Shown here: piece by piece, positions 47,504 to 64,000 of the stretch | How the letters are laid out: each line of letters opens with the position of its first letter | Position numbering within the stretch: position 1 is the first letter of the stretch | From: Modestobacter sp. VKM Ac-2984 | GTDB taxonomy: Bacteria > Actinomycetota > Actinomycetes > Mycobacteriales > Geodermatophilaceae | Direction of reading: 5' to 3' | Assembly (NCBI RefSeq): GCF_026967985.1 | Contig: NZ_JAPVBJ010000003.1 | Coordinates: 1-64,000, forward strand | DNA length: 64,000 bases | Made by a program: the position numbers and the translations under genes | The notes under the pieces: generated by a model | Told to the model about the DNA's origin: nothing | The model's input: the letters and a program-made list of their open reading frames with translations, nothing else | Databases searched by the model: none

Positions 47504-49162
47504 ATGGCGCAGAGCTGGCTGACCGGGTCGGCAGCCGCCGGCCCGCTGCCGCCGACCAGCGAGGGGGTGCCCGGCGAGCTGCGTCGGGAGGTGCTCCGCG
47601 ACGCCGGCGTGGTCGTGGCGCTCACGCTGGGCTGCCTGGCCGCCGGTGTCGTCTGGGACCTGCCGCAGCGGATCACCGGCTGGTCGCAGTCGACCGGCGC
47701 CCCGCTGGACCACGTGGTCTTCCTGCTCGCCGCCTCCCACCTGCTGATGATGGGGTTCGGCGCGCGCCGCGGGCGCCAGTTGAAGACCGAGGCCGCGGAG
47801 CACCGCCGGCTGGAGGCGCTGCTGCGGGACCAGGCCGACCGGGACCCGCTGACCGGGCTGGCCACCCTCACCGCCTTCCTGACCGCACTCGACCGACTCG
47901 AGCGGTCCGGCACCACCGCGGACGACGTCGCCGTGCTGCTGCTGGACGTCGACCGGTTCACCGCCGTCAACGACACGCTCGGCCACGAGGTGGGCAGCGG
48001 GCTGCTGGTCGCGCTGGCCGATCGGATCCGCCAGGTGCTCCCCGCGGGCGGGGTCGCCGCCCGGACCGGCGGCGACGTGTTCGCGCTGCTGGTGCCCGAG
48101 GCCTCCACGGCGCTGGCCACCGACGTCGTCGCGGCGCTCCGTCGGCCCTTCACGGTGGGCGAGCTGGAGCTGGAGGTCGACCTGAGCGCCGGGTTGGCCC
48201 GCGGGCTCGCACCGGGGGGCGCCGACCTGGTCCGCCGGGCCGACGTGGCCCGCAGCACCGCGAAGCGGCAGTCGGCCGGGCTGGTCGTCTACTCCCCGGA
48301 CCTGGACACGTTCGACCCGGGACAGCTGGCCCTGCACCGCGACCTGCGCCGCGCCATCCGCGAGGGCACGCTCGAGGTGCACCACCAGCCGAAGGTCTGC
48401 CTGGCCGACGGCCGGGTCGCCGGGGTGGAGGCGCTGGTCCGCTGGCCGCACCCGGAGCTGGGCCTGCTGCTGCCCGACCGGTTCATCGTGCTCGCCGAGC
48501 AGACCGGCTTGATCGCCCCGCTCACCGACCTGGTGCTCCGCCGGGCGCTGGCCGACGCCCGCAGCTGGCGCGAGGCGGGCCGGCGGCTGACCGTGGCAGT
48601 GAACCTCTCCGCCCGGCTGCTGCACGACCCGCAGCTGCCGGCCCGGGTGGGCGCGGCGCTGTGTGCCGAGCGGGTGGCGCCCGAGGACCTGGAGCTGGAG
48701 ATCACCGAGACCGCGGCGATGGAGGACCCCGAGCGCGCGATGACCGTGCTCGGCCAGCTGCGGCTGCTCGGCGTCCGGCTGTCGGTCGACGACTTCGGCA
48801 CCGGGCACGCCTCGCTGGCCCACCTGTCCCGGCTGCCGGTGGACCTGCTCAAGATCGACCGCAGCTTCGTGGCGGGCCTGGGCACGGAGCCCGCCGCCCG
48901 GGCCATCGTGCGCAGCACGGTCGACCTCGGCCACGCCCTCGGCCTGAGCGTGGTCGCCGAGGGCGTCGAGACCGTCGAGCAGTGGCACCAGCTCGCCGCT
49001 TGGGGCTGTGACCTCGCCCAGGGCTGGTGGCTGGCCAGGCCGGTGCCGGCCGCCGTCGTCCCGGCGGTGGCGGCCGAGATCGAGCGCCGGTGCGCCGGGC
49101 TCGAACCGCCGGCCGCCGTCGACGTGGCCTCGGTCGTGCCCGCTCAGCGGTCGTTCGGGTAG
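47504..49162 (+). CDS. membrane GGDEF-EAL protein with degenerate GGDEF (probable c-di-GMP phosphodiesterase)
   Basis: 552-aa protein. Two hydrophobic segments (about 34-52 and 68-85) anchor it. The GGDEF domain has lost its signature: it reads GGDVF at 189-193, so cyclase activity is unlikely. The EAL domain is intact, with EAL at 309-311, NLSARLL, EITETAAM, DDFGTGHAS, LKIDRSF and AEGVET. It probably degrades c-di-GMP, with the pseudo-GGDEF as a GTP-sensing or structural part. The ATG at 47504 follows GAGGAGG closely, and a GTG one codon earlier is possible. Its 3' end overlaps the convergent oxidoreductase gene by 19 bp. Confidence 0.9.
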   Translation: MAQSWLTGSAAAGPLPPTSEGVPGELRREVLRDAGVVVALTLGCLAAGVVWDLPQRITGWSQSTGAPLDHVVFLLAASHLLMMGFGARRGRQLKTEAAEHRRLEALLRDQADRDPLTGLATLTAFLTALDRLERSGTTADDVAVLLLDVDRFTAVNDTLGHEVGSGLLVALADRIRQVLPAGGVAARTGGDVFALLVPEASTALATDVVAALRRPFTVGELELEVDLSAGLARGLAPGGADLVRRADVARSTAKRQSAGLVVYSPDLDTFDPGQLALHRDLRRAIREGTLEVHHQPKVCLADGRVAGVEALVRWPHPELGLLLPDRFIVLAEQTGLIAPLTDLVLRRALADARSWREAGRRLTVAVNLSARLLHDPQLPARVGAALCAERVAPEDLELEITETAAMEDPERAMTVLGQLRLLGVRLSVDDFGTGHASLAHLSRLPVDLLKIDRSFVAGLGTEPAARAIVRSTVDLGHALGLSVVAEGVETVEQWHQLAAWGCDLAQGWWLARPVPAAVVPAVAAEIERRCAGLEPPAAVDVASVVPAQRSFG

Positions 49163-50226
49163 ACCACCCCGAGCTGCTCGCGGACCTCGTCCAGCAGCCG
49201 CATCGTGGCCAGCGAGTGCTCCAGCGGCATCACCGGGCTCTCGGTCAGCCCCTGCTGGAGGCAGCGGGTGACCTCTCGCAGCTCGTGCACGTAGCCCGAG
49301 CCGATCAGCCCGAACTCCTCGGTGCGGACGGCGCCGTCGCCCACCTGCACGTCCAGCCGGGTCGGCCGGTAGACCGAGTGGCCGCCGTCGGTGCGGACCC
49401 AGCCGTCGCTGCCGGAGATCAGCGCGCTGTGCGGCGAGCGGGCCAGCAGGGACGTCGTCAGCTGCGCCTGCGCGCCGGAGGCGTAGGTGAGGGTGAGCGC
49501 GTTCTGCGCGTCGACGCCCTCGGGGGTGACGGTGCCGGCGGCACGCACCGAGTCGGGCAGCCCGAGGGTGCCCCAGGCCCACAGCAGCGGGTAGACGGCC
49601 AGGTCGAGCAGCGCACCACCGCCGTCCGCGAGCGCCCAGATCCGGGCGGTGAGGTCCAGCGGTGCCGGGAACCCGACCTCCGCGGCGACCCAGTGCACCG
49701 TGCCGATCTCCCCGGAGCCGGCGATCTGCAGCGCGCGCTGGTACGCCGGCAGGAACCGGGTCCAGACCGCCTCCATCAGGAACAGCCCCCGCTCCCGGGC
49801 CAGGTCGACGAGCTCCTGGGCCTCCCGGGCGTTGACCGTGACCGGCTTCTCGCAGAGCACGGACTTGCCGGCGGTCAGCGCCGCCCGGACCACGGCGGCG
49901 TGCTGGGCGTGCGGGGTGGCGACGTAGACGACCTCGACGGCCGGGTCGGCGAGCAGGGCGTCCAGCCCCGACCGCGCCTCGTCGTCGGCGTACCAGGACG
50001 CGAAGCCGAGCTGCTCGGCGAAGGCCTGGGCCCGCGCCGGCTGCCGGGAGCTGACCGCCTGCAGGACGGCGTCGGGCAGCAGCGCCAGGTCGGCGGTGAC
50101 GGTGGCGGCGATCGCGCCGGTGGCCACCACGCCCCACCGGACCGGCCGCCCGGTCGGGGCCAGCGGATCGGCGTCGAGGAGCTCCGGCCGGGCGATGAAC
50201 GGCGAGGTGGGAGGCGCAGAGGTCAT
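49144..50226 (-). CDS. Gfo/Idh/MocA-family oxidoreductase
   Basis: 360-aa NAD(P)-dependent oxidoreductase. The Rossmann part has VRWGVVATGAIAATVTADL and VYVATPHAQHAAVVRAAL, and the family Lys lies in GKSVLCEKPVTVN. The C-terminal part has the ALLDLAVYPLLWAWGTLG loop, which carries Asp and Tyr where sugar dehydrogenases have Asp/His. Members oxidise sugars, inositols or dihydrodiols, and some remove C-linked sugars from flavonoids through a 3-keto step. It starts 9 bp after the monooxygenase stop, so it belongs to that transcript and to the proposed flavonoid regulon. Confidence 0.87.
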   Translation of the reverse strand: MTSAPPTSPFIARPELLDADPLAPTGRPVRWGVVATGAIAATVTADLALLPDAVLQAVSSRQPARAQAFAEQLGFASWYADDEARSGLDALLADPAVEVVYVATPHAQHAAVVRAALTAGKSVLCEKPVTVNAREAQELVDLARERGLFLMEAVWTRFLPAYQRALQIAGSGEIGTVHWVAAEVGFPAPLDLTARIWALADGGGALLDLAVYPLLWAWGTLGLPDSVRAAGTVTPEGVDAQNALTLTYASGAQAQLTTSLLARSPHSALISGSDGWVRTDGGHSVYRPTRLDVQVGDGAVRTEEFGLIGSGYVHELREVTRCLQQGLTESPVMPLEHSLATMRLLDEVREQLGVVYPNDR

Positions 50227-50235
50227 GCGGTCACG

Positions 50236-51864
50236 CTAGGGGAGGAGGTCGGCCAGCTCCCCGGCGCCCACGACGCGTGCGAGCAGCGCCTCGGCGTCCC
50301 CCGGCTCCGAGCCGCGCCAGGCGACGTGCTGGTCGGGGCGGACCAGCAGCAGGTCGGCCCCGTAGCGCTCCCGGAGGCCGGTGAGGTGCGCGAGGTCCAC
50401 CACCCGGAACGGGACGTTGCGCCGCGCGGCCGCCACGGCGAGCGCCTCGGTGGCCGCCGAGCGGTCCAGCCGGAGCAGGGTGAACTCCTCGCCGAGCAGG
50501 TCGTACAGCGAGCGCCCGTCCGGGAGCCAGGTGTGCGGCAGCCGCGCCCCCGGGTGGGCCGACGGCCGGAACGCGACCAGTTCGGGTGCGGGCACGGGGA
50601 GGCCGTCGGGGACGACGACCGCCGAGTCGGGGTAGTCGTAGCCGAGCACCAGACCGAGGCTGTGGAACTCGGGGTCCTTGGCCTGCAGGCCCCGGGCGAG
50701 GGTGGCGCGCAGGGCCGCGCCCTCGGCGGTCTCGGCGTCCAGGTCGCCGGTGGCGAAGGACGGCGCGAGGAAGGCCTCCTGCGCCCCGGCCGCGTCGATG
50801 GTCCGCTCGGCCACGGGCCGGCGTTCGGCCTGGTAGCTGTCCAGCAGGCACTCCGGTGCCCAGCCGCGCAGCACGGCGGCGAGCTTCCAGCCCAGGTTGA
50901 CCGCGTCGCCGACGCAGGTGTTGAAGCCGTGCCCGCCCCACGGGGGGTTCAGGTGCGCGGCGTCCCCGACCAGGAACACCCGCTGGCCCCGGTACCGGTC
51001 GACCAGCAGCATCCGCGCCGACCAGGGGTCGGTGGCGAGCACCTCGACGTCGATCTCCGCGCCGGCCAGCGTCTGCACGAGCTGCACCGGGTCGACGTCC
51101 TGGGCCTCCGCGTCGACGCCCTGGACGATCGCCCACCACGTGCCCTGCAGGTCCAGCCGCCCCATCAGCCCGCCGCACTCCGCGCCGATGACCCAGTAGT
51201 GGACGCCGAGCGCGCACAGCTCCCGCTGCTCCAGCTGCGGCGAGCGGAAGGTGATGCTCACGTTCGGCAGGCTCCCGGAGGAGCCGGCGTACCGGGCGCC
51301 GATCGCCCGGCGGGTGACCCCGCTGCTGCCGTCGCAGCCGAGCAGCCAGTCGGCGGTGACCCGGTGACGTCCGCCGTCCGGGCCCTCCAGGACCGCGGCT
51401 GCCCCGGCGGGGCCGTCGGTGACCTCGACGACGCGCCAGCCGATGACGACGGTGACCGACGGCAGCTCGGCGACGGCGTCCCGGAGCAGCTGCTCGACCA
51501 GCGGCTGCGGGGCCTGCTGGCCGGGCTCGGCGAAGTCGTCCCGCCGCTCGGTGGTGAGCCCGAACGCCTCGGGGAAGCGGGTGATCTCGTGCCCGAACAG
51601 TCCGGTGCAGAAGACGACGTCCTGCGCGTGCTCGACGGGCAGCGGCGCCAGCGCACGCAGCCGGTCGGCCAGGCCCCAGCGACGCAGGTGCTCCATCGTC
51701 CGCACGCTGGTGGTCTTGGCGCGCGGGCGGAGCGGGTCGAGGGCGCTGCGCGGTTCGACGACGAGCACCTCGATGCCACGCCGGCCGAGCTCCAGCGCGG
51801 CAGCCAGGCCACTGGGCCCCCCGCCGGCGATCAACACCGGGACGTGGGCTGGCACGGCGGTCAT
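50236..51864 (-). CDS. class A FAD-dependent aromatic hydroxylase
   Basis: 542-aa flavoprotein of the PHBH/MhpA/PgaE type. The FAD fingerprint is LIAGGGPSGLAAALELGRRG, the DG motif lies in LLGCDGSSGVTRRAIG, and the second FAD motif is VFLVGDAAHLNPPWGGHGFNTCVGDAVNLGWKLA. A thioredoxin-like C-terminal domain (about 410-542) is present as in phenol and resorcinol hydroxylases. It hydroxylates an activated phenol with NAD(P)H and O2. AGGAGA precedes the ATG. One of the four 15-bp repeat sites lies 121 bp upstream. Within the pathway, the phloroglucinol-type product of quercetin cleavage is the natural candidate substrate; this is inference. Confidence 0.9.
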   Translation of the reverse strand: MTAVPAHVPVLIAGGGPSGLAAALELGRRGIEVLVVEPRSALDPLRPRAKTTSVRTMEHLRRWGLADRLRALAPLPVEHAQDVVFCTGLFGHEITRFPEAFGLTTERRDDFAEPGQQAPQPLVEQLLRDAVAELPSVTVVIGWRVVEVTDGPAGAAAVLEGPDGGRHRVTADWLLGCDGSSGVTRRAIGARYAGSSGSLPNVSITFRSPQLEQRELCALGVHYWVIGAECGGLMGRLDLQGTWWAIVQGVDAEAQDVDPVQLVQTLAGAEIDVEVLATDPWSARMLLVDRYRGQRVFLVGDAAHLNPPWGGHGFNTCVGDAVNLGWKLAAVLRGWAPECLLDSYQAERRPVAERTIDAAGAQEAFLAPSFATGDLDAETAEGAALRATLARGLQAKDPEFHSLGLVLGYDYPDSAVVVPDGLPVPAPELVAFRPSAHPGARLPHTWLPDGRSLYDLLGEEFTLLRLDRSAATEALAVAAARRNVPFRVVDLAHLTGLRERYGADLLLVRPDQHVAWRGSEPGDAEALLARVVGAGELADLLP

Positions 51865-51984
51865 GGGATCTCCTGTCCTGGGCTGGGGTGCCCAGTGGCT
51901 GGGAAGGGGGAGGGGCGACGGGCATCGGAGGCCGATCGGCGCCCGTCCAGCATCCGTGGCGGGGGTCACGCCGCCGTAGCCCGA

Positions 51985-51999
51985 TGCCATTGACCGGCA
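51985..51999. promoter_or_regulatory. IclR-type operator site A (before the hydroxylase operon)
   Basis: TGCCATTGACCGGCA, identical in reverse complement to site C and one or two bases from sites B and D. It lies 20 bp past the DUF3500 stop and 121 bp before the hydroxylase start. TGCC and GGCA form short palindromic ends. Confidence 0.75.
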
Positions 52000-52018
52000 C
52001 AGCGAGACGGATCCGTCC

Positions 52019-53266
52019 TCAGGAGCCCTGCGCGGCCTGCCACTGCCGGACCCAGGCCCGGCCGTAGTCGTTGCCGTGCGGGGTGCGCAGCACGGTGTGC
52101 ACGTGGAAGGGCTGCGGCGTCCGGTAGTCGAGGAAGACGCCGCAGTGGTGGTCGAGCTCGGCGATGAGCACCGGCGACTGCACCCGGTAGTAGAAGACGT
52201 CGCCGGGCTCGCAGCCGCCGATCCAGCTGAACCAGGTCTCGGCCAGGTGCTCGGTCACCTCGCGCATCCGGGCCCGGCGGGGGCCCTCGGGCAGCAGGCC
52301 GACGAACTGCTCGACGACCGCCAGCACCAGCCGCTGTGCCTCGGGTGGCATCTCGGCGACGGGGACGCCCTCGACCGGGATCACCCGGTTGTCCTGGAAG
52401 GCGCCGGCCAGGTGCCGCTCGTCGCCGGGGTGCACCCGGCCCGGCGGCATGGCCGGGTCGACCATCTGCGCGTAGACGGTCGCCGCCCGCCGCTGCTCTT
52501 CGGGCAGGGCGGCCATCACGGCCAGGCCGGCGGTGATCCGCTCGGTGAAGGACTCGGTGCCGGCGTGCGGGCCCGCGTCGATCTCGTTCGGCTCGGCGCC
52601 GAGGAAGACCGGGGACAGCAGCATCCGGCCCTCGACGACCAGGCAGTTGAGGGCGCAGTGGTGACCGAACAGCTGCCAGCCCCAGGGCGCCCGCGGGTCG
52701 GGGGTGCCGTAGAGGGCGATGTTGTAGCTGAACTCGTTGAGCACGTTCGCCAGGCCGACGACCTCGCCGAGGAAGCCGTTGATCAGCATCATCGTGTGGG
52801 CGAGCTCGAAGCCCTCGGGGGACAGCGAGGCGCGGACCAGCGCCAGCGCCTTGTCCCGCACCTCCGAGGGCTGGAACTCCAGCCGCAGGCCGGTGTCGAA
52901 CTGCATGAACTCGGGGTTGGCCCAGGTCTGCCACTCGGGTGCGTCCACCGGGAAGGAGACCCGCGCCCGGCCGTCGTCGTCCAGCGCGGCGAGCAGGTCC
53001 TGCGCCGCCGTCACCATGGCCGCGACCGGCGCCTCCTCGCCCGGCTCGGCCGGGGTGAACGGGTGCAGGCCCGCGCGCAGCGTGCCGTCCTCGGTGACCC
53101 CGCGGAACTCCTGCAGGTACAGCGGCGTCCAGCCCTCGACCAGCCCGCCGGTGAAGGTGCCAGGGGTCCGGGCGTGCTCCCGGTAGGCGTGGGGGTCCAG
53201 GCCGCGGACGTCGGTGAGCCGGGGGTGGTCGGGCGGGAACAGGTACTGCCGGAAGTCACCGGACAC
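52019..53266 (-). CDS. DUF3500-family protein
   Basis: 415-aa protein with the DUF3500 pattern. His/Asn-rich blocks stand out: LFGHHCALNCLV (about residues 205-216), EPNEIDAG, GCEPGDVFYYRVQSPVLIAELDHHCGVFLD and the C-terminal HVHTVLRTPHGNDYGRAWV. The clustered His and acidic residues suggest a metal-dependent enzyme, but no reaction is established that I know of. There is no signal peptide. It overlaps the FAH-family gene by 11 bp and is last in the quercetinase operon, so it probably acts on a product of flavonoid cleavage. Confidence 0.85.
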   Translation of the reverse strand: MSGDFRQYLFPPDHPRLTDVRGLDPHAYREHARTPGTFTGGLVEGWTPLYLQEFRGVTEDGTLRAGLHPFTPAEPGEEAPVAAMVTAAQDLLAALDDDGRARVSFPVDAPEWQTWANPEFMQFDTGLRLEFQPSEVRDKALALVRASLSPEGFELAHTMMLINGFLGEVVGLANVLNEFSYNIALYGTPDPRAPWGWQLFGHHCALNCLVVEGRMLLSPVFLGAEPNEIDAGPHAGTESFTERITAGLAVMAALPEEQRRAATVYAQMVDPAMPPGRVHPGDERHLAGAFQDNRVIPVEGVPVAEMPPEAQRLVLAVVEQFVGLLPEGPRRARMREVTEHLAETWFSWIGGCEPGDVFYYRVQSPVLIAELDHHCGVFLDYRTPQPFHVHTVLRTPHGNDYGRAWVRQWQAAQGS

Positions 53267-54107
53267 GGCGCGCCTCGCTGCCCACGACGGTGTTGGTCAG
53301 CACGCCGAGCCGGTCGACCTCGACCTCCACGACGTCCCCGGGCTGCAGCAGCCACGGTGGCGTGCGGGCGTAGCCGACACCGGACGGGGTGCCGGTGGCG
53401 AGCAGGTCGCCGGGCCGCAGGGTGAAGGTGCGGGAGATGAGGGAGAGGGTGTCGCCGACGGTGTAGACCATCTCGTCGGTGCGCCCGTCCTGGACGGTCT
53501 CGCCGTTGACCCGGGTCTGCACCCGCAGCCCGTTGCGCAGGTCGCCGACCTCGGCCGCAGGGACGAGCGGCCCGAGCGGGCCTGAGCGGTCGCCGTTCTT
53601 GCCGAGGATCCACTGGCTGGTGAGCTTCTGCGCCCGCCGGGAGGTCAGGTCGTTGAACGTCGAGTAGCCGACGACGGCGGCCAGCGCCTCGTCGGGCGTG
53701 GCGTCGACCAGGGGGCTGCCGACCCAGGCCATCACCTCGCCCTCCCAGTCCAGCCCCTCCTCATCGGCCGGCACCGGGACCTCCGCGCCGTCGACGGTCA
53801 GCGACTGGGTCCAGCGGGCGAAGAGCGTCGGGTACGGCGGGACCTCCTGGTCGCGGAAGCTGCCCTCGGCGACGTGCTTCAGGTAGTTCAGCCCGATGCA
53901 GACGACCCGGGCGCCGGGCAGCACCGGTGGCACGAACTCGAGGTCGGCGGCGGCGAGCGTCTCGCCGCGGGGCTCGCGGGACAGGTGCCCGGCGGCGTCG
54001 GCCCAGAAGTCGTCCAGGCCGGCGACGACGGTGACCGAGGCGCCGTCGTCCGACAGCGTGGCCACCTGCACCCCGCTGCCGTCCCGGTGGATGCCGACGA
54101 TCCTCAT
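53256..54107 (-). CDS. fumarylacetoacetate hydrolase-family protein
   Basis: 283-aa FAH-fold hydrolase/isomerase. The N-terminal cap is short. The catalytic domain has VVCIGLNYLKHVAE, the metal ligands Glu-x-Glu in DWEGEVMAWVG and Asp in GYSTFNDLTSRRAQ, the WILGKNGDRSGPLGP substrate loop and the LLATGTPSGVGYARTP end. The family cleaves acylpyruvates or isomerises ring-fission products of aromatic compounds. The start overlaps the esterase stop by 4 bp (ATGA), so it is coupled. It likely handles the ring-opened product of the flavonoid pathway. Confidence 0.9.
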   Translation of the reverse strand: MRIVGIHRDGSGVQVATLSDDGASVTVVAGLDDFWADAAGHLSREPRGETLAAADLEFVPPVLPGARVVCIGLNYLKHVAEGSFRDQEVPPYPTLFARWTQSLTVDGAEVPVPADEEGLDWEGEVMAWVGSPLVDATPDEALAAVVGYSTFNDLTSRRAQKLTSQWILGKNGDRSGPLGPLVPAAEVGDLRNGLRVQTRVNGETVQDGRTDEMVYTVGDTLSLISRTFTLRPGDLLATGTPSGVGYARTPPWLLQPGDVVEVEVDRLGVLTNTVVGSEARRVR

Positions 54108-55027
54108 GCTCGGTCTCCTTCGTCGATCAGGTGGCGCCGCAGGAAGGTGATCGTGCGGTCGAGTGCGTCGGTGGCGACCTCGGGCGTGCCGAGCCACATG
54201 TGGTCGGCGCCGTCGTAGGTGTGCAGCTCCACGTCCGTCCCCGCGGCGGCCAAGGCGTCGTGCAGCCGCTGGCTCTGTGCGGTAGCGACGAACCGGTCGG
54301 CCCGGCCGTGCAGCAACAGGACCGGCGGCGCGGCGGGGGAGACGTGCGTGATCGGGCTGGCCTCGGCGGCCCGGTCGGCGACCGCGGAGACCGGGGCGCC
54401 GAGGAGCTGGGACTCCCGGCTGTCGGGGTCCGCCGGGTCGTTGCCGATGTCGGTCGCCACCACCGCGACGTCGCTGGGGGCGTACCAGGCGACCACGGTG
54501 GAGACCGCGGACGACGGACCGGTGACGCCGACCTCGCCCTCCAGCGCGGCGTCCGTCGTGAGACCGAGCAGCTCGGCCAGGTGCCCACCGGCCGACTCGC
54601 CCCAGGCGGCGATCCGGTCGGCGTCGACGCCCAGCTCACCGGCGCGTGAGCGCAGCCAGCGGACGGCGGCCTTCGCGTCGTGCAGCTGCGCCGGCCACAG
54701 CGCTTCACCCGACAGTCGGTAGTCGAGGCTGGCCACCGCGATGCCGGCGGCGGCCACCTGCTCGAACGGCGGGGGGTTGGCGTCCCGGTACATCGGGCCG
54801 GCGGTGTGCCGGCTGCCCAGCCGCCACCCGCCACCGTGCAGGAACAACGCGACCGGATGCGGTCCGTCCCCGGCCGGCAGGTACAGGTCCAGCTCCAGCG
54901 GCCGGGCGCCGGGCAGCGCCGCGTACGGCACGCCGGAGAGAACCCGGACGCCGGCGGCGCCGCTGCGAGCGGGCGGCAGCGGCGCCTCGTGGGCGGGCGG
55001 GGGGAGCGGGAGGGCGGGCGTGGGCAC
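54104..55027 (-). CDS. alpha/beta esterase (HSL/acetyl-esterase type)
   Basis: 307-aa hydrolase. The oxyanion motif HGGGW is at about residues 64-68, nucleophile Ser145 lies in WGESAGGHLAEL, acid Asp244 in LHGRADRFVA and His276 in DGADHMWLG, a complete triad. It hydrolyses small esters. As the gene directly after the quercetinase in the operon, it is well placed to split the depside 2-protocatechuoyl-phloroglucinol carboxylate into protocatechuate and a trihydroxybenzoate. That substrate is inferred from position only. No signal peptide; the N-terminus is Pro-rich. Confidence 0.88.
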   Translation of the reverse strand: MPTPALPLPPPAHEAPLPPARSGAAGVRVLSGVPYAALPGARPLELDLYLPAGDGPHPVALFLHGGGWRLGSRHTAGPMYRDANPPPFEQVAAAGIAVASLDYRLSGEALWPAQLHDAKAAVRWLRSRAGELGVDADRIAAWGESAGGHLAELLGLTTDAALEGEVGVTGPSSAVSTVVAWYAPSDVAVVATDIGNDPADPDSRESQLLGAPVSAVADRAAEASPITHVSPAAPPVLLLHGRADRFVATAQSQRLHDALAAAGTDVELHTYDGADHMWLGTPEVATDALDRTITFLRRHLIDEGDRA

Positions 55028-55047
55028 GGGTCTCCTCAGGGCGCGCG

Positions 55048-55105: not shown

Positions 55106-55666
55106 TCAGGCGGTGGGCTCAGGCCACTCGAAGTCGGGCTTGAACTGCATGTTGTGCTGCTGCGCGGCTGCCTGCATGCGCGGGAAGTCCGGGATGAACG
55201 GCGGCTGGTCGGGGCTGGTCGAGTCGGTCGGGGTGCCCATGTGCTGGAAGAACCGCTCGAAGCCGCCGGAGAGCGTGCCCATCATCCGGGCGTGCTCGAC
55301 GATCTGGTACGCGTGCGCGAACCCGGCCGGCACGTAGCCGAAGTCGCCCGGGGTGAGCAGCTGCGACTGCTTGCCGCCCTCGGCGTCCTCGAAGAACAGC
55401 CGGACCTTGCCCTCGAGCACGTAGAACGTCTCGTGGGTCTCGTTGTGCGAGTGGGTCGGGATGACGTCGCCGGCGGGGGAGTCCGCGGTGACGATGCCGA
55501 ACTGGCCGTCGGTCTCGTCGCCGGAGAGCAGCACGGTGAAGAGGTCGCCGAACAGCTTGGCGTGCTCCCCCTCGCCGCGGCGGAGCACGTAGGGCTGCGG
55601 CTTGCCGGGCAGGACGCCCTGCCACTGCGGGCCCTTCGCGGGGTCGATCAGGTACTCGAAGCTCAT
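55106..55666 (-). CDS. queD: quercetin 2,3-dioxygenase (monocupin quercetinase)
   Basis: 186-aa single cupin with the length and layout of the Streptomyces sp. FLA quercetinase QueD. The metal ligands follow the same spacing: His72 and His74, then Glu79 in THSHNETHETFYVLEG, and His118 in VPAGFAHAYQ. The C-terminal FERFFQHMGTP, then FIPDFPRM and FKPDFEWPEP tail is also characteristic. The enzyme opens ring C of flavonols with release of CO, using Ni, Co or Mn. The ATG at 55666 follows GGGAGC. Site B of the 15-bp repeat lies 75 bp upstream. Other small cupins have different tails, which favours this call. Confidence 0.85.
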   Translation of the reverse strand: MSFEYLIDPAKGPQWQGVLPGKPQPYVLRRGEGEHAKLFGDLFTVLLSGDETDGQFGIVTADSPAGDVIPTHSHNETHETFYVLEGKVRLFFEDAEGGKQSQLLTPGDFGYVPAGFAHAYQIVEHARMMGTLSGGFERFFQHMGTPTDSTSPDQPPFIPDFPRMQAAAQQHNMQFKPDFEWPEPTA

Positions 55667-55740: not shown

Positions 55741-55755
55741 TGCCATTGGACGGCA
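55741..55755. promoter_or_regulatory. IclR-type operator site B (before queD)
   Basis: TGCCATTGGACGGCA, two bases different from sites A and C. It lies between the beta-glucosidase stop and queD, 75 bp ahead of the queD start. Confidence 0.7.
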
Positions 55756-55761
55756 GGTGGA

Positions 55762-56934
<1,173 letters not shown>

Positions 56935-57048
56935 GCGGTGGGCCTCCAGCGGTGTCGGGAGGCCGTGCCCCACGGGCAGGGCGCGGCGCTCCTCGTCGAT
57001 CGACGTCCCGCGAGCATGCGTGACGCCGCTCACCGTGATCAGTGCCGC

Positions 57049-57063
57049 TGCCGGTCAATGGCA
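57049..57063. promoter_or_regulatory. IclR-type operator site C (before the beta-glucosidase)
   Basis: TGCCGGTCAATGGCA, the exact reverse complement of site A, in the short gap between the iclR stop and the beta-glucosidase leader. Confidence 0.75.
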
Positions 57064-57074
57064 GAGGAGTCGGA

Positions 57075-57881
57075 TCAGGGGGTCCCGGGTGCCCGCCAGG
57101 CGCCGAGCCCACGGGAGATGCCCCGGGCGGCCGTGCGCACCGCCGGCCCGAGCAGTCGTGGCTCGGCGTTCTCCGCGGGCACCAGCACCGACAGCGCGGC
57201 GACGACCGCGCCCTGCGCGTCGTGCACCGGGGCGGCGACGGAGACGATCGGCTCCGGGGCGCCCCGGCGGAAGGTGGCCAGCCCGTCCCGCCGGATCTCC
57301 GCCAGCGTGCGGCGCAGCGCCGCGGGGGACACCGGGATCTTCTCCGGCAGGTGCATCAGCGGCTGCCCGAGCACCTGCTCCTGGAACCCGGACTCCGCGA
57401 AGGCGAGGAGCACCAGTCCGACCCCGGTGGAGTGCAGGGGCATCCGCCCGCCGGGCCGGTAGAGGGCGGCGACGGCCCCGTGGGAGGAGAGCCGCTCCAC
57501 CATCACCGCCTCCTCGCCCTCCAGGACGGCGAGGAGCACGTGCTGGCGGGTCACCTCCTCCAGGTCGCCCATGAAGGGGAGGGCCACCCGGCGCAGCTCG
57601 TGGCTGCGGGGGGTGAGTGACGCCACCTCCCACAGTCGCATGCCGATGGAGAAGCGGCCGTCGGCGCCGCGCTCGAGGGCGCCCCACTCCAGCAGCCGGC
57701 CGGCCAGCCGCAGCGCCGAGCTGGCCGGGATGCCCGTGCGCCGGCTGAGCTCGCTGAGGGTCAGGTACGGGTGGTTGCTGTCGAAGGCGCCGAGCAGGGC
57801 GAGCGCCCGGTCGACGACGGGATCGCCCTGCGGAGGGCGCCGGCCGCGGACCCGTGTGGTGGGGGAGACGTCGTCCGTCAC
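57075..57881 (-). CDS. IclR-family transcriptional regulator
   Basis: 268-aa regulator. The N-terminal winged helix (about 22-80) has DRALALLGAFDSNHPYLTLSELSRRTGIPASSALRLAGRLLEWGALERG. The effector domain (about 95-260) has HVLLAVLEGEEAVMVERL, MPLHSTGVGLVLLAF (the pocket loop), IRRDGLATFRRG and IVSVAAPVHDAQGAVVAALSV. IclR proteins often control aromatic-compound operons and sense a pathway intermediate. Four near-identical 15-bp sites surround the units of this cluster, one 48 bp upstream of this gene, so it probably controls all of them and itself. The GTG start at 57881 follows GGAG. Confidence 0.92.
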   Translation of the reverse strand: MTDDVSPTTRVRGRRPPQGDPVVDRALALLGAFDSNHPYLTLSELSRRTGIPASSALRLAGRLLEWGALERGADGRFSIGMRLWEVASLTPRSHELRRVALPFMGDLEEVTRQHVLLAVLEGEEAVMVERLSSHGAVAALYRPGGRMPLHSTGVGLVLLAFAESGFQEQVLGQPLMHLPEKIPVSPAALRRTLAEIRRDGLATFRRGAPEPIVSVAAPVHDAQGAVVAALSVLVPAENAEPRLLGPAVRTAARGISRGLGAWRAPGTP

Positions 57882-57928
57882 GCAAGGGGCTCCGGGATCT
57901 CGTCGGTGAGGCGCAGGCCACAGTTGTC

Positions 57929-57943
57929 TTCCATTGACCGGCA
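57929..57943. promoter_or_regulatory. IclR-type operator site D (between iclR and the ABC operon)
   Basis: TTCCATTGACCGGCA, one base different from sites A and C. It is 48 bp upstream of iclR and 119 bp upstream of the divergent substrate-binding protein gene, so it can serve both. Confidence 0.75.
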
Positions 57944-58061
57944 TTGTGCCTGACGTCACGGCGAGGCCCGCCGCACTGTTGCTGCCAAGCCGGTTCCCCG
58001 GCGCGGCCGAGTCCCCGGCCGACATGACCCCTCCGTAATGAAGCGAAGGAGCCAGACCGGT

Positions 58062-59654
58062 ATGAAGCTGTTCCGGACTCGTGACCCCCTGGTCGTCCCC
58101 CGCCCCTCCCTGACGCGGACCGGTGTCGCCGTCCTGGCCGCCGGTGCGCTCACCTCGCTCGCCGCGTGCGGTGGCGGCAGCAACGGCGGCGGCACCGCCG
58201 GCCAGAGCCCGAGCGACACCCTGACCTTCGCCTACGACGCGGACGCCGCCCCGACCGGTTACGACCCGCTGGAGTACTCGCAGGGCCAGTTCACCTTCTT
58301 CAGCGCCCTGTACGACTCGCTGTTCGTGACCCAGCCGGACGGCACCGTGGCGCCGAGCCTGGTCACCGAGTTCAGCAACAACGCCGACGACACCCAGACG
58401 ACGCTGACCCTGCGCGACGGCGTCACGTTCGCCGACGGCTCGGAGCTGACCGCGGAGATCGTCAAGGCCAACCTGGACCGGCGCAACGACCCCGACCTGG
58501 AGGCCTACGGCGCGCTCGCGACCGGCGGGGCCAGCGAGATCGTCGACGTGGCCGCGCCCGACCCGCAGACCGTCGTCATCACCTGGGCACAGCCGCAGGC
58601 CAGCCCGGAGAACAACCTCACCGACACCGTCGGGGTCATCGTCGGGCCCGACGGTCTCGCCGACCCCGCCTCGCTGGAGACCACCCCGGACGGGTCGGGC
58701 GCCTACACGCTCAACGCGGGGGAGACCACGCGGGCCAGCACCTACACGCTGGACAAGAACGAGCAGGCGTGGAACGCCGACGAGTGGGCCTACGACAGCG
58801 TCGTGTTCAACGTGATCACCGACCCGCAGGCGCTGGCCAACGCGGTCGTCTCCGGTCAGGCCGACGTCGCCACCATCCTCAAGCCGACCACGATCGACAT
58901 GGTCGAGCAGCGGTCGAGCCTGGCGAAGGTCGGCGGCACCATCGTCGGCTTCCCGGTCATCGACAAGACCGGTGCCACGAACCCCGCCTTCGCCGACGAG
59001 CGGGTCCGGCAGGCGATCAGCCACGCCATCGACCGGGAGGCGATCGTCGAGCAGCTGCACCCCGGCGCGCAGCCGACGGCGCAGCTGTTCCCCGCCGAGG
59101 CCGAGGGCTTCGACCCCGCGCTGAACGAGGAGTTCGGGTACGACCCCGAGCGTGCCCGCGAGCTGCTCGCCGAGGCCGGTCTGCCCGACGGGTTCGCCTT
59201 CGACATCACGGTGCTCGGCCAGCCGACGGAGGACCAGGTGGTCATCCAGCAGCAGCTGGCCGAGGTCGGCATCGAGATGAACTTCGTGACCGCCACCTCG
59301 ACCGACCAGGTGTTCGCTGCGGTGCGCACCGACCCGCTGATCTTCGGGCCGATGGCCGTCGGTGGTCAGCCGGCCGGCTGGGTCGCCGGGGTGCTCTACG
59401 GCGGCTTCATGAACATGCAGGGTGCGACGGAGCCGGAGATCCAGAGCGCGCTGGGCGCTGCCCTCGGCTCGACCGGCGAGGCGAAGGACCAGGCGCTCGG
59501 CGAGCTGAACCGGGCCATCGCGGAGAACGGCTGGTACATCCCGGTCTACGAGGACTACGCCTACACCGGCTACAACGCCGAGAAGGTGGCCGAGCCCTCC
59601 TACGCGGGGACGAACAACTACCTGGTCCTCTCCGAGGTCGAGCCGGCGGCCTGA
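58062..59654 (+). CDS. ABC transporter substrate-binding lipoprotein (peptide/oligosaccharide type)
   Basis: 530-aa cluster C binding protein. The signal ends in the lipobox LAAC (Cys36), followed by a Gly/Ser linker. TLTFAYDADAAPTGYDPLEYSQ, VTEFSNNADDTQTTLTLRDGVTFADGSELTAE and AISHAIDREAIVEQLHPGAQPTAQLFP are typical. AAGGAG precedes the ATG at 58062, making it a better start than the ATG 24 bp earlier. The family also imports plant oligosaccharides, and the neighbouring glycosidases point to a flavonoid glycoside or its sugar part. It is divergent from iclR and followed by a hairpin. Confidence 0.88.
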   Translation: MKLFRTRDPLVVPRPSLTRTGVAVLAAGALTSLAACGGGSNGGGTAGQSPSDTLTFAYDADAAPTGYDPLEYSQGQFTFFSALYDSLFVTQPDGTVAPSLVTEFSNNADDTQTTLTLRDGVTFADGSELTAEIVKANLDRRNDPDLEAYGALATGGASEIVDVAAPDPQTVVITWAQPQASPENNLTDTVGVIVGPDGLADPASLETTPDGSGAYTLNAGETTRASTYTLDKNEQAWNADEWAYDSVVFNVITDPQALANAVVSGQADVATILKPTTIDMVEQRSSLAKVGGTIVGFPVIDKTGATNPAFADERVRQAISHAIDREAIVEQLHPGAQPTAQLFPAEAEGFDPALNEEFGYDPERARELLAEAGLPDGFAFDITVLGQPTEDQVVIQQQLAEVGIEMNFVTATSTDQVFAAVRTDPLIFGPMAVGGQPAGWVAGVLYGGFMNMQGATEPEIQSALGAALGSTGEAKDQALGELNRAIAENGWYIPVYEDYAYTGYNAEKVAEPSYAGTNNYLVLSEVEPAA

Positions 59655-59674
59655 GCCGCCCGGCACCGGCCGGG

Positions 59675-59696
59675 GGCCGCGGGACGTCCCGCGGCC
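59675..59696 (+). terminator. hairpin between substrate-binding protein and permease genes
   Basis: Palindrome GGCCGCGGGAC/GTCCCGCGGCC, 20 bp after the stop. In ABC operons such hairpins keep the binding protein more abundant than the membrane parts. Confidence 0.65.
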
Positions 59697-59754
59697 ACCG
59701 GCCCCTCTCGCACCGTTCCCTGGCCCGTGCACCCGTACGCCGAAGGACCCCGTG

Positions 59755-60696
59755 ATGCTCGCTTTCCTCGCCCGGCGGATGGCCATGGCCATCGGCACGG
59801 TGCTCGCCGCGGTGGTGATCAGCTTCCTGCTGGTGCACGCCACCGACACCTCCCCGGGCGCGGTCCGGCTGGGCACGAACGCGACCCCGGAGCGGATCGT
59901 CGCGGAGAACGAGGCGCTGGGCTGGAACCGCCCGCTGCCCACCCAGTTCTTCGACTACCTCGGTGACCTGGTGCGGGGTGACCTGGGCACCTCGCTCATC
60001 GACGGTCGCTCGATCGCCGCCGACCTCGCCGACCGGGTGCCGGTGACGGCGTCGATCGCGCTGTTCGCCACCCTCCTCTCCGGTGTCCTCGGCGTCGTCC
60101 TGGGCGTCACCGCGGCCGTCCGCGGTGGCCGGCTGGCCCGCCTGATCACCACCGGCAGCGGGGTGGCGCTGTCCCTGCCGGTCTTCTGGGTCGGCATCCT
60201 GTTGGTCTACGTGCTGGCGCTCCAGCTGGGGTGGCTGCCCGCCACCGGGTACGTGCCGTTCACCGTGGACCCGGTCGGGTGGTTCACCAGCCTGCTCATC
60301 CCGGTGCTCGCGCTGACCATCGGCGGGGCGGCGATCGTCGCGCGGACGGCGAACGCCGGCCTGCGGCAGGCGCTGGCCCAGGAGCACGTGCGGACGCTGC
60401 GTGCGATGGGCACGCCGGAGTGGCGGATCCGTTACGTGCACGCCCTGCGGTTCGCCAGCCTCCCCGTCGTCTCGGTGCTCGGCATCCAGTTCATCGCCCT
60501 CTTCGGCGGCTCGGTGATCATCGAGAACCTCTTCGCACTGCCCGGGCTGGGGCAGGCCGGACAGGCCGCCGCGGCCTCCAGCGACTTCCCGGCCCTGGTC
60601 GGCGTCGTGGTGGTGGCCACCGTCGTCGTCGTGCTCATCAACCTGCTGCTCGACCTGTTCGTGGCGGCACTGGACCCGAAGGTGCGTGCATCGTGA
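59755..60696 (+). CDS. ABC transporter permease (OppB type)
   Basis: 313-aa permease with about six membrane segments. Features are FLARRMAMAIGTVLAAVVISFLLVH at the start, GDLGTSLIDGRSIAADLADRVPVTASIAL, the ATPase-contact loop VRTLRAMGTPEWRIRYVHALR and the GGSVIIENLFALPGLGQ end. The ATG at 59755 has AAGGA 6-7 bp upstream; a GTG one codon earlier is possible. The stop overlaps the next gene by 4 bp (GTGA). Confidence 0.9.
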   Translation: MLAFLARRMAMAIGTVLAAVVISFLLVHATDTSPGAVRLGTNATPERIVAENEALGWNRPLPTQFFDYLGDLVRGDLGTSLIDGRSIAADLADRVPVTASIALFATLLSGVLGVVLGVTAAVRGGRLARLITTGSGVALSLPVFWVGILLVYVLALQLGWLPATGYVPFTVDPVGWFTSLLIPVLALTIGGAAIVARTANAGLRQALAQEHVRTLRAMGTPEWRIRYVHALRFASLPVVSVLGIQFIALFGGSVIIENLFALPGLGQAGQAAAASSDFPALVGVVVVATVVVVLINLLLDLFVAALDPKVRAS

Positions 60697-62699
60697 GCGT
60701 GCTCCCGCTGGACGCCGCCGACGGCGTCACGGAGGACCCCGGCCCGCCGGCCCGCCGGCGCGTGCCCGAGGTGCTCCGCCGGCCTGGTGGGCTGCTGGCC
60801 GCCGGCTGGCTGCTGTTCATGGTCGTGGCGTCGCTGACCGCACCGTGGTGGCGCCCCTACGGCGTCGCCGAGCAGGACCTCGCCAACCGGCTGGCGCTGC
60901 CGTCGGCCGAGCACTGGTTGGGCACCGACCCGCTCGGCCGGGACCTGCTCAGCCGGATCTTCACCGCCGGCACCGAGCCGCTGCTCTCCTCCGCGGTGAC
61001 CGTCCTGGTCGCCTTCGGGATCGGCCTGCCGCTGGCCCTGATCGCCGCCGAGCGCGGGCCCCGCGTCGAGCGGGTGATCAGCCGGGTGACCGAGGTGTTC
61101 CTCGCGCTGCCCTCGACGATCCTGCTGCTGGCCGTCATCGGCGTGATCGGGGTGCGGATCTTCATCATCATGGCCGTCCTCGGCGTGCTGATCTCCGCCG
61201 CGGTCTACCGGGTGATGCTCGGCGTGGCCCAGTCGGTCCGCACCCGGCTCTTCGTGGACGCCGCCCGGGTCAACGGTCTGGGCTCGCTGCGGGTGAACGT
61301 GGTCCACGTGCTGCCGTCGATGGCCACCGTCATCGCCGTGCAGGCGGCCCAGCTGTACGGGATCGGCCTGCTCATCGTCGCGGGCCTGGCCTTCCTCGGC
61401 TTCGGTCCGGCCGAGCCCGACCCCAGCTGGGGGTTCATGATCCAGGACGCGTCGTCCTACGTGTTCAACGCGCCGTGGCTGATGGTGCCCACCGGGCTGG
61501 TCCTCGCGCTCACCGTGATCGCCGCCAACGAGCTGGCCGACGCGATCGCGGGCAAGGCCGCGGGGGAGGCCGCACCGGCCCGCCGGCGGCGCCGGTCGCC
61601 GGCGCGGACCGCCCCGCTCGACGGCGCGGCGGAGCTCGCCCCGGCCGACCCGGCCGCCGTCCTGGAGGTCCGGGACCTCACCATCTCCGTCGACGACGGC
61701 GCCGACCTGGTCACCGGGGTCTCGTTCGCGCTGCGGCCGGGCCGGGTGCTCGGTCTGGTCGGTGAGTCCGGGTGCGGCAAGACGATGACCGCGCGGTCGC
61801 TGCTCGGTCTGCTGCCCGACGGTGTGTCGGTGCGCGGCGGGGCGATCCACTGGCGTGGTCAGGACCTGGTCGGTCGCACGGAGAAGGAGCTGAGCGCTGT
61901 CCGGGGGCGGGAGATCGCGCTGATCTCCCAGGAGCCGATGGTGGCGCTGGACCCGATGTTCTCCGTCGCCTACCAGCTCACCCAGCCGATCCGCCGGTTC
62001 CGCGGCGTCGGCCGGGGCGAGGCGCGGCGGATCGCCGCGGAGCTGCTGCGCAACGTGGGCATCGTCGACGCCGAGCGGGTGCTGGGGAGCTACCCGCACC
62101 AGCTCTCCGGCGGCATGGCCCAGCGCGTGTGCATCGCGCTGGCGCTCACCGGTGAGCCGGACCTGCTGATCGCCGACGAGCCGACGACCGCGCTGGACGT
62201 CACCGTGCAGGCGGAGATCCTCACCCTGCTGCGGGCGCTGGTCCAGGACACCGGGCTGTCGGTGGTGGTCGTCAGCCACGACCTCGGGGTCGTCGCCGAC
62301 ATCTGCGACGACGTGGCCGTGATGTACGCCGGCGCGGTGGTCGAGTCCGGCACCACGGCCGCCGTCCTCGACGCGCCGGAGCACCCGTACACCCAGGCGC
62401 TGCTGGCGGCGAACCCGCACGTGCCCGACGGCGTCGCGGTGCCGGTGCGGCTGGCGTCGATCCCCGGGACGGTGCCCCCGCCCGGCTCATGGCCGGCCGG
62501 CTGCCGGTTCGCCACCCGCTGCCAGTTCGCCCAGGACCAGTGCCGGTCCCCGTTCCCGGCCCGGCCTGCCCACGCCACCGGCTCGGTGCTCTGCGTCCGG
62601 GCCGACGAGCTCGCCGACGCCCACGTCAGCTGGGACGCCGACCACGTCGGTGCGGCGCAGGCCCCCGCCACCACCCCGACCGCAGGAGCGTCCCGATGA
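60693..62699 (+). CDS. fused ABC permease-ATPase (OppC-OppD)
   Basis: 668-aa fusion. Residues about 1-290 are an OppC-type permease ([22 protein letters not shown] and the [22 protein letters not shown] end). An Arg/Pro/Ala-rich linker of about 30 residues leads into a full OppD-type ATPase: Walker [10 protein letters not shown]-loop [14 protein letters not shown], signature LSGGMAQR, Walker [13 protein letters not shown], switch [11 protein letters not shown]. The C-terminal Cys-containing segment ([14 protein letters not shown]) may hold an iron-sulfur or zinc site as in other OppD proteins. The GTG start overlaps the OppB stop and the end overlaps the last ATPase gene, so the operon is tightly coupled. 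Confidence 0.92.
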
Positions 62700-63718
62700 C
62701 CGCGCTGGCCGACCCCACCCGCGAGGTCCACCCGGGCGAGCAGGCACCCGCACTCCGGGTCCGCGACCTGGTCGTCCGCTACGGCTCGGGTCGCCGGGCG
62801 CGCAGCACCCCGCCGGCGGTGGACGGCGTCAGCTTCGACATCGCGCCCGGGGAGACGCTCGGCCTGGTCGGGGAGTCCGGGTCGGGCAAGTCCACGATCG
62901 GCAAGGCGGTCCTGGGCCTGCAGCGACCGACCGCCGGCACGGTCGAGGTGGCCGGGCAGGACGTCACCGCCATGTCGCTCAAGCAGCGCAGCCGCCAGGT
63001 GGCGGACCTGCGGGTGGTCTTCCAGGACCCGTACTCCTCGCTGAACCCCGCCCGCACCATCGGCCAGACCCTGGTCGAGCCGCTGCGGCTGATGGGCGTG
63101 ACCGGCGCCGAGGCGCTGGCCCGGGCCCGGTCCGGGCTGGAGTCCGTGGGCCTCCCGGCCGAGGCCGTGGACCGTCGCCCGGCGCAGTTCTCCGGGGGCC
63201 AGCGGCAGCGCATCGCCATCGCCCGGGCGCTGGTCTGCGACCCCAAGGTGGTCGTGCTGGACGAGCCGGTGTCCGCCCTGGACCTGTCCACCCAGGCGCA
63301 GGTGCTCAACCTGCTGGCCGACCTCCGCGACCAGCGCGGGCTGTCCTTCCTCTTCATCGCCCACGACCTGGGCGTGGTGCGCTTCCTGTCCCAGCGCACC
63401 GTCGTCCTCTACCGCGGCCAGGTCATGGAGACCGGCCCGGCCGAGCAGGTGGCCCAACAGCCCCGGCACCCGTACACCCTGGCGCTGACCGCGGCGGCTC
63501 CGGTGCCGCGCCCCGCCGAGCAGGCCGCGCGTCGTGCGGCCCGGGAGGCCGCCGGCTTCGGCACCGCGGGCGCCGCCTCCCCGTCGGTCACCGGCTGCCC
63601 CTTCGTGCCGCGCTGCCCGTTCTCCACCGACGTCTGTGTGGAGCAGCGGCCGCCGCTCCGGCTGCTCGACGGCTCGCTCACCGCCTGCCACCACGCCGAG
63701 CGGGTCCCCAGGCCGTGA
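62696..63718 (+). CDS. ABC transporter ATP-binding protein (OppF type)
   Basis: 340-aa ATPase. Walker A is GESGSGKST, the Q-loop region [16 protein letters not shown], the signature FSGGQRQR, Walker [13 protein letters not shown] and the switch His lies in [12 protein letters not shown]. The C-terminal oligopeptide-type extension carries [14 protein letters not shown], a Cys cluster like that of OppF/DppF. AGGAG precedes the ATG, which overlaps the fused gene stop by 4 bp. Its own stop overlaps the rhamnosidase start, linking import and hydrolysis. Confidence 0.92.
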
Positions 63719-64000
63719 GGGAGGACCCCCCTGCCCCCCACCACCTGCGGGTCGAGCACCTCGACCAGGCACTCGGCATCCGGAGCAGCACGCCGCGGCT
63801 GTCCTGGCAGCTGCCGGCCGGTGCCCGCGAGCAGCTGGCCGCCCGGATCACCACCGACACCGGCTGGGACACCGGCTGGGTGGAGCACGACCGGAGCCTG
63901 CTGGTGCCCTACGCCGGTCCGCCGCTGGGGTCGTGCCAGCGGGTGCAGTGGCGGGTGGCGGTCCGCACCGACCTCGGCGAGAGCCCCGCGTCGGAGCCGG
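63715..64000 (+). CDS. GH78 alpha-L-rhamnosidase, N-terminal fragment (cut by window end)
   Basis: The frame opens with a GTG overlapping the ABC ATPase stop (GTGA) and stays open to the end, 95 codons. The start [25 protein letters not shown] is the typical opening of bacterial alpha-L-rhamnosidases, followed by the [14 protein letters not shown] beta-strands of the N-terminal fibronectin-like domain. The catalytic barrel lies outside the window. It would remove terminal rhamnose, for example from a rutinoside or neohesperidoside. Its position ties it to the importer and to the glucosidase and quercetinase genes. Confidence 0.85.

Follow-up and report, generated by a model that had tools for sequence, protein, structure and literature searches.

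A conserved, apparently co-regulated gene set for probable flavonol-glycoside catabolism in Modestobacter, with a DUF3500 protein as candidate ring-opening enzyme

Which genes would an actinobacterium need to take a plant flavonol glycoside from uptake to central metabolism, and could they stand together? This question is raised by a stretch of 64,000 nucleotides of Modestobacter sp. VKM Ac-2984 (positions 1 to 64,000 of NZ_JAPVBJ010000003.1, referred to here as the window), which is the beginning of contig C15 of a 4.56 Mb genome, and in which genes for a quercetinase-like cupin, glycosidases, an importer, an IclR-family regulator and a member of DUF3500, a Pfam family of unknown function, lie side by side. 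Based on the enzyme families, their aligned motifs, the gene coupling, the conserved clustering, a shared 15-bp site and intradiol dioxygenase genes elsewhere in the genome, we regard the block as a conserved, apparently co-regulated set and estimate at roughly 0.6 the probability that it is a regulon, probably controlled by the IclR protein, for catabolism of flavonol rhamno-glycosides, in which the DUF3500 protein would open the A-ring and a hydrolase of the FAH superfamily would cleave the product. The parts are of known kinds; new would be a complete bacterial layout that opens the C-ring first, a candidate operator, and a case for DUF3500 and FAH as the lower pathway of the A-ring. If this reading is true, the cluster would make up an entire route that opens the C-ring first and leads from uptake into central metabolism, with an enzyme for each step and an operator that can all be tested. 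It would also give a function to DUF3500, which 52 of 345 genomes in a class-wide sample carry.

The initial annotation placed a 15-kb block at 49144 to 64000 and read it as a regulon for rutinoside breakdown, coupled by gene overlaps. Profile searches recovered all the families it named, as follows.

49144..50226, minus strand: Gfo/Idh/MocA oxidoreductase, probably a sugar dehydrogenase (PF01408 2e-25, PF22725 1.1e-18)
50236..51864, minus strand: class A flavin adenine dinucleotide (FAD) aromatic hydroxylase, RebC / PRK06126-like (PF01494 1.3e-68, PF21274 6.2e-14)
52019..53266, minus strand: DUF3500 protein (PF12006 1.7e-104)
53256..54107, minus strand: FAH-superfamily hydrolase (PF01557 5.9e-64)
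54104..55027, minus strand: BD-FAE-type alpha/beta hydrolase, putative depside esterase (PF20434 1.8e-53, GESAG motif)
55106..55666, minus strand: QueD-type monocupin, Cupin_2 (Streptomyces QueD 5fli, 1.5e-45)
55762..56934, minus strand: GH1 glycosidase (PF00232 2.2e-63, NEP and TENG motifs)
57075..57881, minus strand: IclR-family regulator (PF01614 1.2e-26, PF09339 6.7e-12)
58038..59654, plus strand: ATP-binding cassette (ABC) substrate-binding protein of family 5, Opp/Dpp type, SBP_bac_5 (PF00496 4.7e-59)
59755..60696, plus strand: ABC permease (PF00528 7.8e-33)
60693..62699, plus strand: ABC permease fused to an ATPase in a single open frame (PF00528 and PF00005)
62696..63718, plus strand: second ABC ATPase (PF00005 1.6e-33)
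63715..64000, plus strand: start of a GH78 alpha-L-rhamnosidase (L002:716-3373, PF17389 4.8e-107), which ends at window-equivalent 66372

On the minus strand, transcription would run from the IclR gene through GH1, cupin, alpha/beta hydrolase, FAH, DUF3500 and hydroxylase to Gfo/Idh; the divergent plus-strand genes run from the substrate-binding protein through permease, permease-ATPase and ATPase to GH78. The coordinates bear out the coupling by overlaps, which amount to 4 bp for esterase and FAH, 11 bp for FAH and DUF3500, and 4 bp at each of the three junctions between the first permease and GH78. The start of the hydroxylase was set at 51864, behind a GGAG; its longest frame opens at 51990, within the 15-bp site described below. 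The block itself is real but larger than first drawn, as it exceeds the window and reaches about 75.4 kb in window-equivalent terms (locus L002), where the first GH78 gene is followed by a second GH78, GH43, a nucleoside-hydrolase-like gene, an SDR on the other strand, GH2 and DUF1349, and then by a GH3-like frame recognized by eye.

Read as a pathway, the importer would take up the intact glycoside, and GH78 and GH1 would strip rhamnose and glucose in the cytoplasm, their N-termini having been judged by eye. Quercetinases yield CO and a depside of protocatechuate and 2,4,6-trihydroxybenzoate. The monocupin would open the C-ring with these products, and the alpha/beta hydrolase would split the depside into protocatechuate, from the B-ring, and 2,4,6-trihydroxybenzoate, from the A-ring. 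The hydroxylase might then convert the latter to 1,2,3,5-tetrahydroxybenzene by ipso-hydroxylation with loss of CO2 (oxidative decarboxylation); alternatively, decarboxylation would come first and phloroglucinol would be hydroxylated to the same compound. The DUF3500 protein would carry out an intradiol opening of 1,2,3,5-tetrahydroxybenzene to 2,4-dihydroxymuconate, that is 2,4-dioxoadipate, or its lactone, and the acylpyruvase-type FAH would cleave the 2,4-diketoacid to pyruvate and malonate. We infer all the substrates in this scheme, as well as the hydroxylase reaction, the DUF3500 chemistry and the FAH products.

The cupin matches Streptomyces QueD over residues 20-183 of 187, and as a single cupin it carries the HxH...E...H set of that enzyme, with H72, H74, E79 and H118 aligned to the QueD ligand positions (HSH, E and H; E79 from the alignment); these three histidines and one glutamate we take to be the metal ligands. 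The earlier description of the protein as QueD-like is therefore sound, and the protein would act as a quercetin 2,3(2,4)-dioxygenase. Both GH78 genes of L002 encode all of the N, concanavalin-like, six-hairpin and C domains. In the GH1 protein, the catalytic glutamates presumably lie in the NEP and TENG motifs.

For the lower steps, the hydroxylase scored 595 bits against a cut-off of 445 for NF004780, a subfamily without a named function and the only one whose cut-off was passed among the 25 NCBIfam matches listed of 55; its closest relative in the PDB is RebC. We propose that it is a 2,4,6-trihydroxybenzoate oxidative decarboxylase or a phloroglucinol hydroxylase. The FAH protein is related to diketoacid hydrolases and acylpyruvase, scores under the cut-off of all six NCBIfam families matched, and is proposed to be a 2,4-diketoacid hydrolase. 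For the B-ring, the genome holds four intradiol dioxygenase matches, two of them adjoining at C12:655198-656384, amid frames that by eye look pobA-, IclR-, pcaHG-, pcaB-, pcaD- and pcaC-like, and protocatechuate would leave through these pca-type genes on another contig. For the A-ring, the initial claim that the block covers each step to ring-opened aromatics would hold only if DUF3500 opens that ring.

Is the set more than a chance assembly? We took the best 80 of 115 loci found by similarity to the DUF3500 protein of the window and scored neighbours by tblastn at E<=1e-20. A quercetinase was present in 46 of the 80 (15 monocupin, 31 bicupin, none with both), counts in which Arthrobacter strains are numerous, making up 19 of the 31 bicupin loci; the 34 loci without it include cut-off loci (e.g. 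L038, L075, L103), so 34 is an upper bound. FAH occurred in 77/80 loci. Where a quercetinase was present, the hydroxylase of the window's type (FAD2) was found in 46/46, FAH in 45/46, the esterase in 45/46, GH78 in 16/46 and GH1 in 15/46; where it was absent, the figures were 11/34, 32/34, 7/34, 1/34 and 0/34, respectively. Among the 63 loci of at least 20 kb, hydroxylase, FAH and esterase were each seen in 40/40 with quercetinase, compared to 7/23, 21/23 and 3/23 without. DUF3500 and FAH are the most constant part of the set. By these counts, the two appear to form a lower module, with the esterase tied to the quercetinase instead. The A-ring scheme fits, since FAH lies near 2,4-diketoacid hydrolases, the pair is kept without a quercetinase, and the esterase mostly is not. 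On the DUF3500 tree, the three quercetinase labels need 13 changes, against a mean of 36.1 in shuffles.

Bicupin relatives, seen in Arthrobacter, Pseudarthrobacter and Brevibacterium, occupy the place of the monocupin in 31 loci. The one bicupin searched (L111) is nearest to the Bacillus subtilis quercetinase (2h0v/1y3t), and that of Brevibacterium is more distant, at 40-45% to the bicupin of Micrococcaceae; a bicupin quercetinase gave no match in the window's own genome at E<=1e-40. All ten relatives chosen by hand from the 15 monocupin loci have, at 10-17 kb from DUF3500, a GH78 orthologue of 78-93% identity. Of 112 Geodermatophilaceae genomes sampled, 55 have DUF3500 (E<=0.001) and 31 have the monocupin (E<=1e-15, including one weak 37% match and one fragment); DUF3500 was present anywhere in 29 of these 31 and within 10 kb of the monocupin in 26, and the co-occurrence gave a Fisher value of 1.6e-9, with kinship not corrected for. 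Among the 345 class genomes, the monocupin was found in 8 and the bicupin in 6, and DUF3500 accompanied 8 of these 14 quercetinase genomes versus 44 of the 331 others (Fisher 2.3e-4). In the family sample a TGA interrupts the match of one quercetinase (G087) and of one DUF3500 (G040), perhaps decayed or badly sequenced copies.

The recurrence of the set in relatives and a shared 15-bp site both argue that the block is more than chance. The site, TGCCATTGACCGGCA, stands in five intergenic gaps of the cluster.

51985..51999, plus strand: 0 mismatches, upstream of hydroxylase and Gfo/Idh
55741..55755, plus strand: 2 mismatches, upstream of the quercetinase gene
57049..57063, minus strand: 0 mismatches, upstream of GH1
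57929..57943, plus strand: 1 mismatch, divergent region between the IclR gene and the transporter
Window-equivalent 72178 (L002:9179-9193): 1 mismatch, between SDR and GH2

Given the fifth site, the regulon probably includes SDR and GH2. The repeated word was first spotted by eye in the gaps, and the pattern was derived from the window itself, which makes searches of the whole genome and of relatives the fairer tests. In the window, four matches were found with up to 2 mismatches, where 0.07 were expected and none of 100 shuffles reached four; up to 3 mismatches gave eight against 1.54 expected, and we do not count the extra four (27187, 44766, 55835, 59024) as sites. Genome-wide, 26 matches had up to 2 mismatches, compared to 5 for the pattern read backwards. 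Those with 0-1 mismatch number four (51985, 57049, 57929 and 72178), all in the cluster, and the remaining 22, including 55741, have 2 mismatches each. The ten hand-chosen relatives yielded 22 matches with 0-1 mismatch, distributed over nine genomes, and the backwards control none; 21 of them share a contig with the cluster, at distances of 23 bp to 22 kb from DUF3500, whereas the 22nd is elsewhere (G457 C10). One relative (G462) carries, 22 kb from DUF3500, a 15-mer identical to the 72178 site. Upstream of the hydroxylase the site recurs exactly in two related loci (L033, L070) and with 1-2 mismatches in three (L032, L035, L045); upstream of the quercetinase gene it recurs with 1-2 mismatches in six (L032, L033, L070, L074, L035, L045).

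At up to 2 mismatches and with 10-kb flanks, all 14 Geodermatophilaceae monocupin loci have at least one match and the Amycolatopsis monocupin locus has none; one of the 31 bicupin loci has a site. From this distribution, the 15-bp element is probably an operator specific to the Geodermatophilaceae, and the IclR protein is the candidate to bind it. The word regulon, chosen before the site was known, therefore agrees with a shared element that stands before the transcription units and whose best matches in the genome are confined to them. What holds of the rutinoside reading is a flavonol-glycoside cluster built around a quercetinase, which relatives retain and which carries a site of its own; rutin as the substrate and action of the cupin on flavonols are presumptive.

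Several observations, however, weigh against our interpretation. With kinship taken into account, the eight independent pairs on supported branches that differ in quercetinase gave averages of 4.2 concordant and 0.0 opposed for the quercetinase-esterase link (median p 0.125), which rests partly on related strains, and 3.2 and 0.0 for the hydroxylase (median p 0.25), so that both associations are consistent in direction but do not reach significance after the correction. In the class sample, 6 of the 14 quercetinase genomes lack DUF3500 and, of the eight with both, only the window's own shows adjacency: in one (G392) both genes lie at contig ends and might still adjoin, and in the other six they are at least 190 kb apart or on separate contigs. 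Quercetinase-DUF3500 adjacency would accordingly be a habit of some lineages, and the clustering in related genomes that the initial annotation had set as its test is seen in most Geodermatophilaceae with the monocupin and in the bicupin loci of Micrococcaceae and Brevibacterium, but not class-wide. One of the ten relatives (G461) is without any site at 0-1 mismatch, and 5 of the 34 loci without quercetinase still have a site at up to 2 mismatches. Finally, the FAH protein is also near a diketoacid hydrolase of rhamnose breakdown, and the only solved relative of DUF3500 bears the title of a dehydratase.

The last point concerns the step on which the A-ring route depends. The protein matches PF12006 at 350 bits (gathering score 27.2) over profile positions 2-297 of 297, and its nearest named relatives are from Modestobacter strains. 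Its structural model has a mean predicted local distance difference test score of 84.5 and a predicted template modelling (TM) score of 0.89; its confidence is low at 116-118 and 278-284. Below an E-value of 0.001, the single Foldseek match was 9x86 (E 2.1e-18, with TM-scores of 0.84 normalized by target length and 0.54 by query length), entitled "Crystal Structure of dehydratase ApmL in Amipurimycin biosynthesis", chain name Amc20; no paper on it was found among the literature matches listed for Amc20 and amipurimycin / ApmL. Identities between the two proteins, in the two aligned blocks compared, include G201, H202, H203, N207, W348, Y359, R361, Q363, E370, D372, H388 and H390, and the six histidine and acidic residues among them (H202, H203, E370, D372, H388, H390) are invariant across a 30-sequence alignment. 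This hints at an active site of histidines and acidic residues, perhaps with a metal, and does not distinguish an oxygenase from a lyase.

The dehydratase-titled relative and these conserved residues are the main reason to consider that, within a flavonol-glycoside regulon, DUF3500 might be a lyase, hydratase or hydrolase acting on a keto form or on the ring-opened product, with another enzyme or spontaneous oxidation opening the ring. The core residues shared with 9x86 (H202, H203, N207, E370, D372, H388 and H390 among them) and the lack of any known ring-cleavage dioxygenase among the 50 Foldseek matches listed of 277 would suit such a role. Against it, the neighbour families scanned, which cover part of the neighbours, include no other ring-cleavage dioxygenase, and fungal work, as conveyed in a passage of a review (PMC12388069), proposes a dioxygenase: in Aspergillus nidulans, the DUF3500 protein is put forward there as a putative dioxygenase converting 1,2,3,5-tetrahydroxybenzene to 5-hydroxydienelactone. 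On balance we consider the non-oxygenase role unlikely, though the strongest competitor.

We favour DUF3500 as a ring-opening enzyme for the flavonol A-ring. Its family might more generally be one of ring-opening enzymes with a fold unlike that of known ring-cleavage dioxygenases. With FAH, it would make up a central pathway of bacteria that leads via 1,2,3,5-tetrahydroxybenzene to pyruvate and malonate and would take the flavonol A-ring after a quercetinase and, in other actinobacteria, other phloroglucinol-type rings; this extension is tentative, and we hold it with somewhat less than even confidence. Martins and colleagues (Microb Biotechnol, 2024) reportedly described a fungal cluster of a monooxygenase, an FAH-like gene and a short protein, with 2,4,6-trihydroxybenzoate as a substrate. 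DUF3500, a flavin monooxygenase and FAH likewise stand together in the window, and a hydroxylase of type FAD2 or FAD15 was found in 66 of the 80 loci. No counterpart of that short protein was identified, no search with its sequence having been made; as candidates we looked at short conserved frames next to DUF3500 (clusters 26 and 33) and set them aside, as their sequences look antisense or spurious, and one, when scanned, had no Pfam match.

It is improbable that the cupin has a different substrate and that the cluster serves to break down some other phenolic compound of plants, whether ester or glycoside (gallate, phloroglucinol and the like). Gallate does feed the fungal route in the passage of PMC12388069 concerned, and the 34 of 80 loci with no quercetinase within reach imply that compounds of other kinds can enter the DUF3500-FAH module; but the near full-length match to QueD with its ligand residues aligned, and the B. 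subtilis-type bicupin found at this position in Micrococcaceae (Brevibacterium has a more distant relative there), speak for a quercetinase here. A similarly low probability attaches to the view that FAH, Gfo/Idh and SDR serve a non-phosphorylating L-rhamnose pathway fed by GH78 rather than an aromatic branch: the best NCBIfam match of FAH is indeed 2,4-didehydro-3-deoxy-L-rhamnonate hydrolase (NF053535, L-2,4-diketo-3-deoxyrhamnonate hydrolase), that enzyme is among its nearest relatives, 8gsr is close in the PDB and an IlvD/Edd dehydratase is present in five related loci, but the match reaches only 139.7 bits of a 500-bit cut-off, and FAH stands beside DUF3500 in 32 of the 34 loci without quercetinase, of which just one has GH78.

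How does the proposed flavonol route compare with described systems? Oxidative flavonoid catabolism in bacteria is divided, in the relevant passages of a 2024 paper (PMC11069340), into routes that cleave the A-ring and routes that cleave the C-ring, the latter exemplified by the Streptomyces and Bacillus quercetinases and a Pseudomonas putida PML2 route. The fde genes of Herbaspirillum and ifc genes of Variovorax described there are also bacterial oxidative sets with FAD monooxygenases, and in ifc cupins as well, but they hydroxylate and open the A-ring on the flavonoid itself, whereas the route proposed here would begin with the C-ring and degrade the A-ring afterwards, as a free acid. QueD of Streptomyces sp. 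FLA (5FLH-5FLJ) shares the monocupin form and the aligned ligand positions, and those passages cite it as an enzyme, stating no downstream gene set. YxaG of B. subtilis (2H0V, 1Y3T) is a bicupin, unlike the protein here, and has relatives sharing the neighbourhood in Arthrobacter, Pseudarthrobacter and, more distantly, Brevibacterium. The fungal 1,2,3,5-tetrahydroxybenzene pathway resembles ours in having DUF3500 as proposed ring opener (PMC12388069), but here the setting is bacterial and DUF3500 is joined to a quercetinase, a putative depside esterase, an importer and glycosidases, with one shared site. An Aspergillus flavus cluster has a quercetin dioxygenase gene (PMC7663156); in the passages that matched, the words esterase and monooxygenase are absent and DUF3500 does not appear. 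The literature searched yielded nothing useful on phloroglucinol catabolism in Corynebacterium glutamicum, and no description of a bacterial gene set of this composition, although one may exist in print. As a pointer only, when soil was given quercetin, one group of Pseudarthrobacter consisted exclusively of isolates, eight in number, from the treated soil (PMC8195599).

Some further observations concern the surroundings of DUF3500, a protein to which the initial annotation had given no role. A second type of class A hydroxylase, MhpA-like and over the NF004829 cut-off (L046:14013-15626), lies beside DUF3500 in several loci, most of them without quercetinase, and may admit other ring substrates to this lower module. 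In a table on Rhodococcus qingshengii RL1 (PMC8416521), a DUF3500 gene, an MFS transporter, an FCD-domain regulator and an MhpA-type hydroxylase have neighbouring locus numbers, an arrangement that resembles the loci here that lack a quercetinase. Also near DUF3500, mostly without quercetinase, are a fused AccD/AccA-like carboxyltransferase and a family III coenzyme A (CoA)-transferase (L040:6831-8696, L050:5495-7258, L040:11553-12830, L086:11281-12525). Clustering placed the transferase near 12 and the carboxyltransferase near 6 DUF3500 loci, and by tblastn the transferase occurs in 2/46 loci with quercetinase versus 9/34 without; the two might conceivably handle a malonate product. The IlvD/Edd sugar-acid dehydratase mentioned above (e.g. 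L035:4942-6663), which shares this neighbourhood in some Geodermatophilaceae, suggests an oxidative branch for the released sugars.

All 10 NCBIfam matches of the Gfo/Idh protein fell far under their cut-offs. A transfer RNA scan of 40000-64000 found none. A convergent GGDEF/EAL-like gene at 47456-49162, recognized by eye, shares its last 19 bp (49144-49162) with the end of the Gfo/Idh gene.

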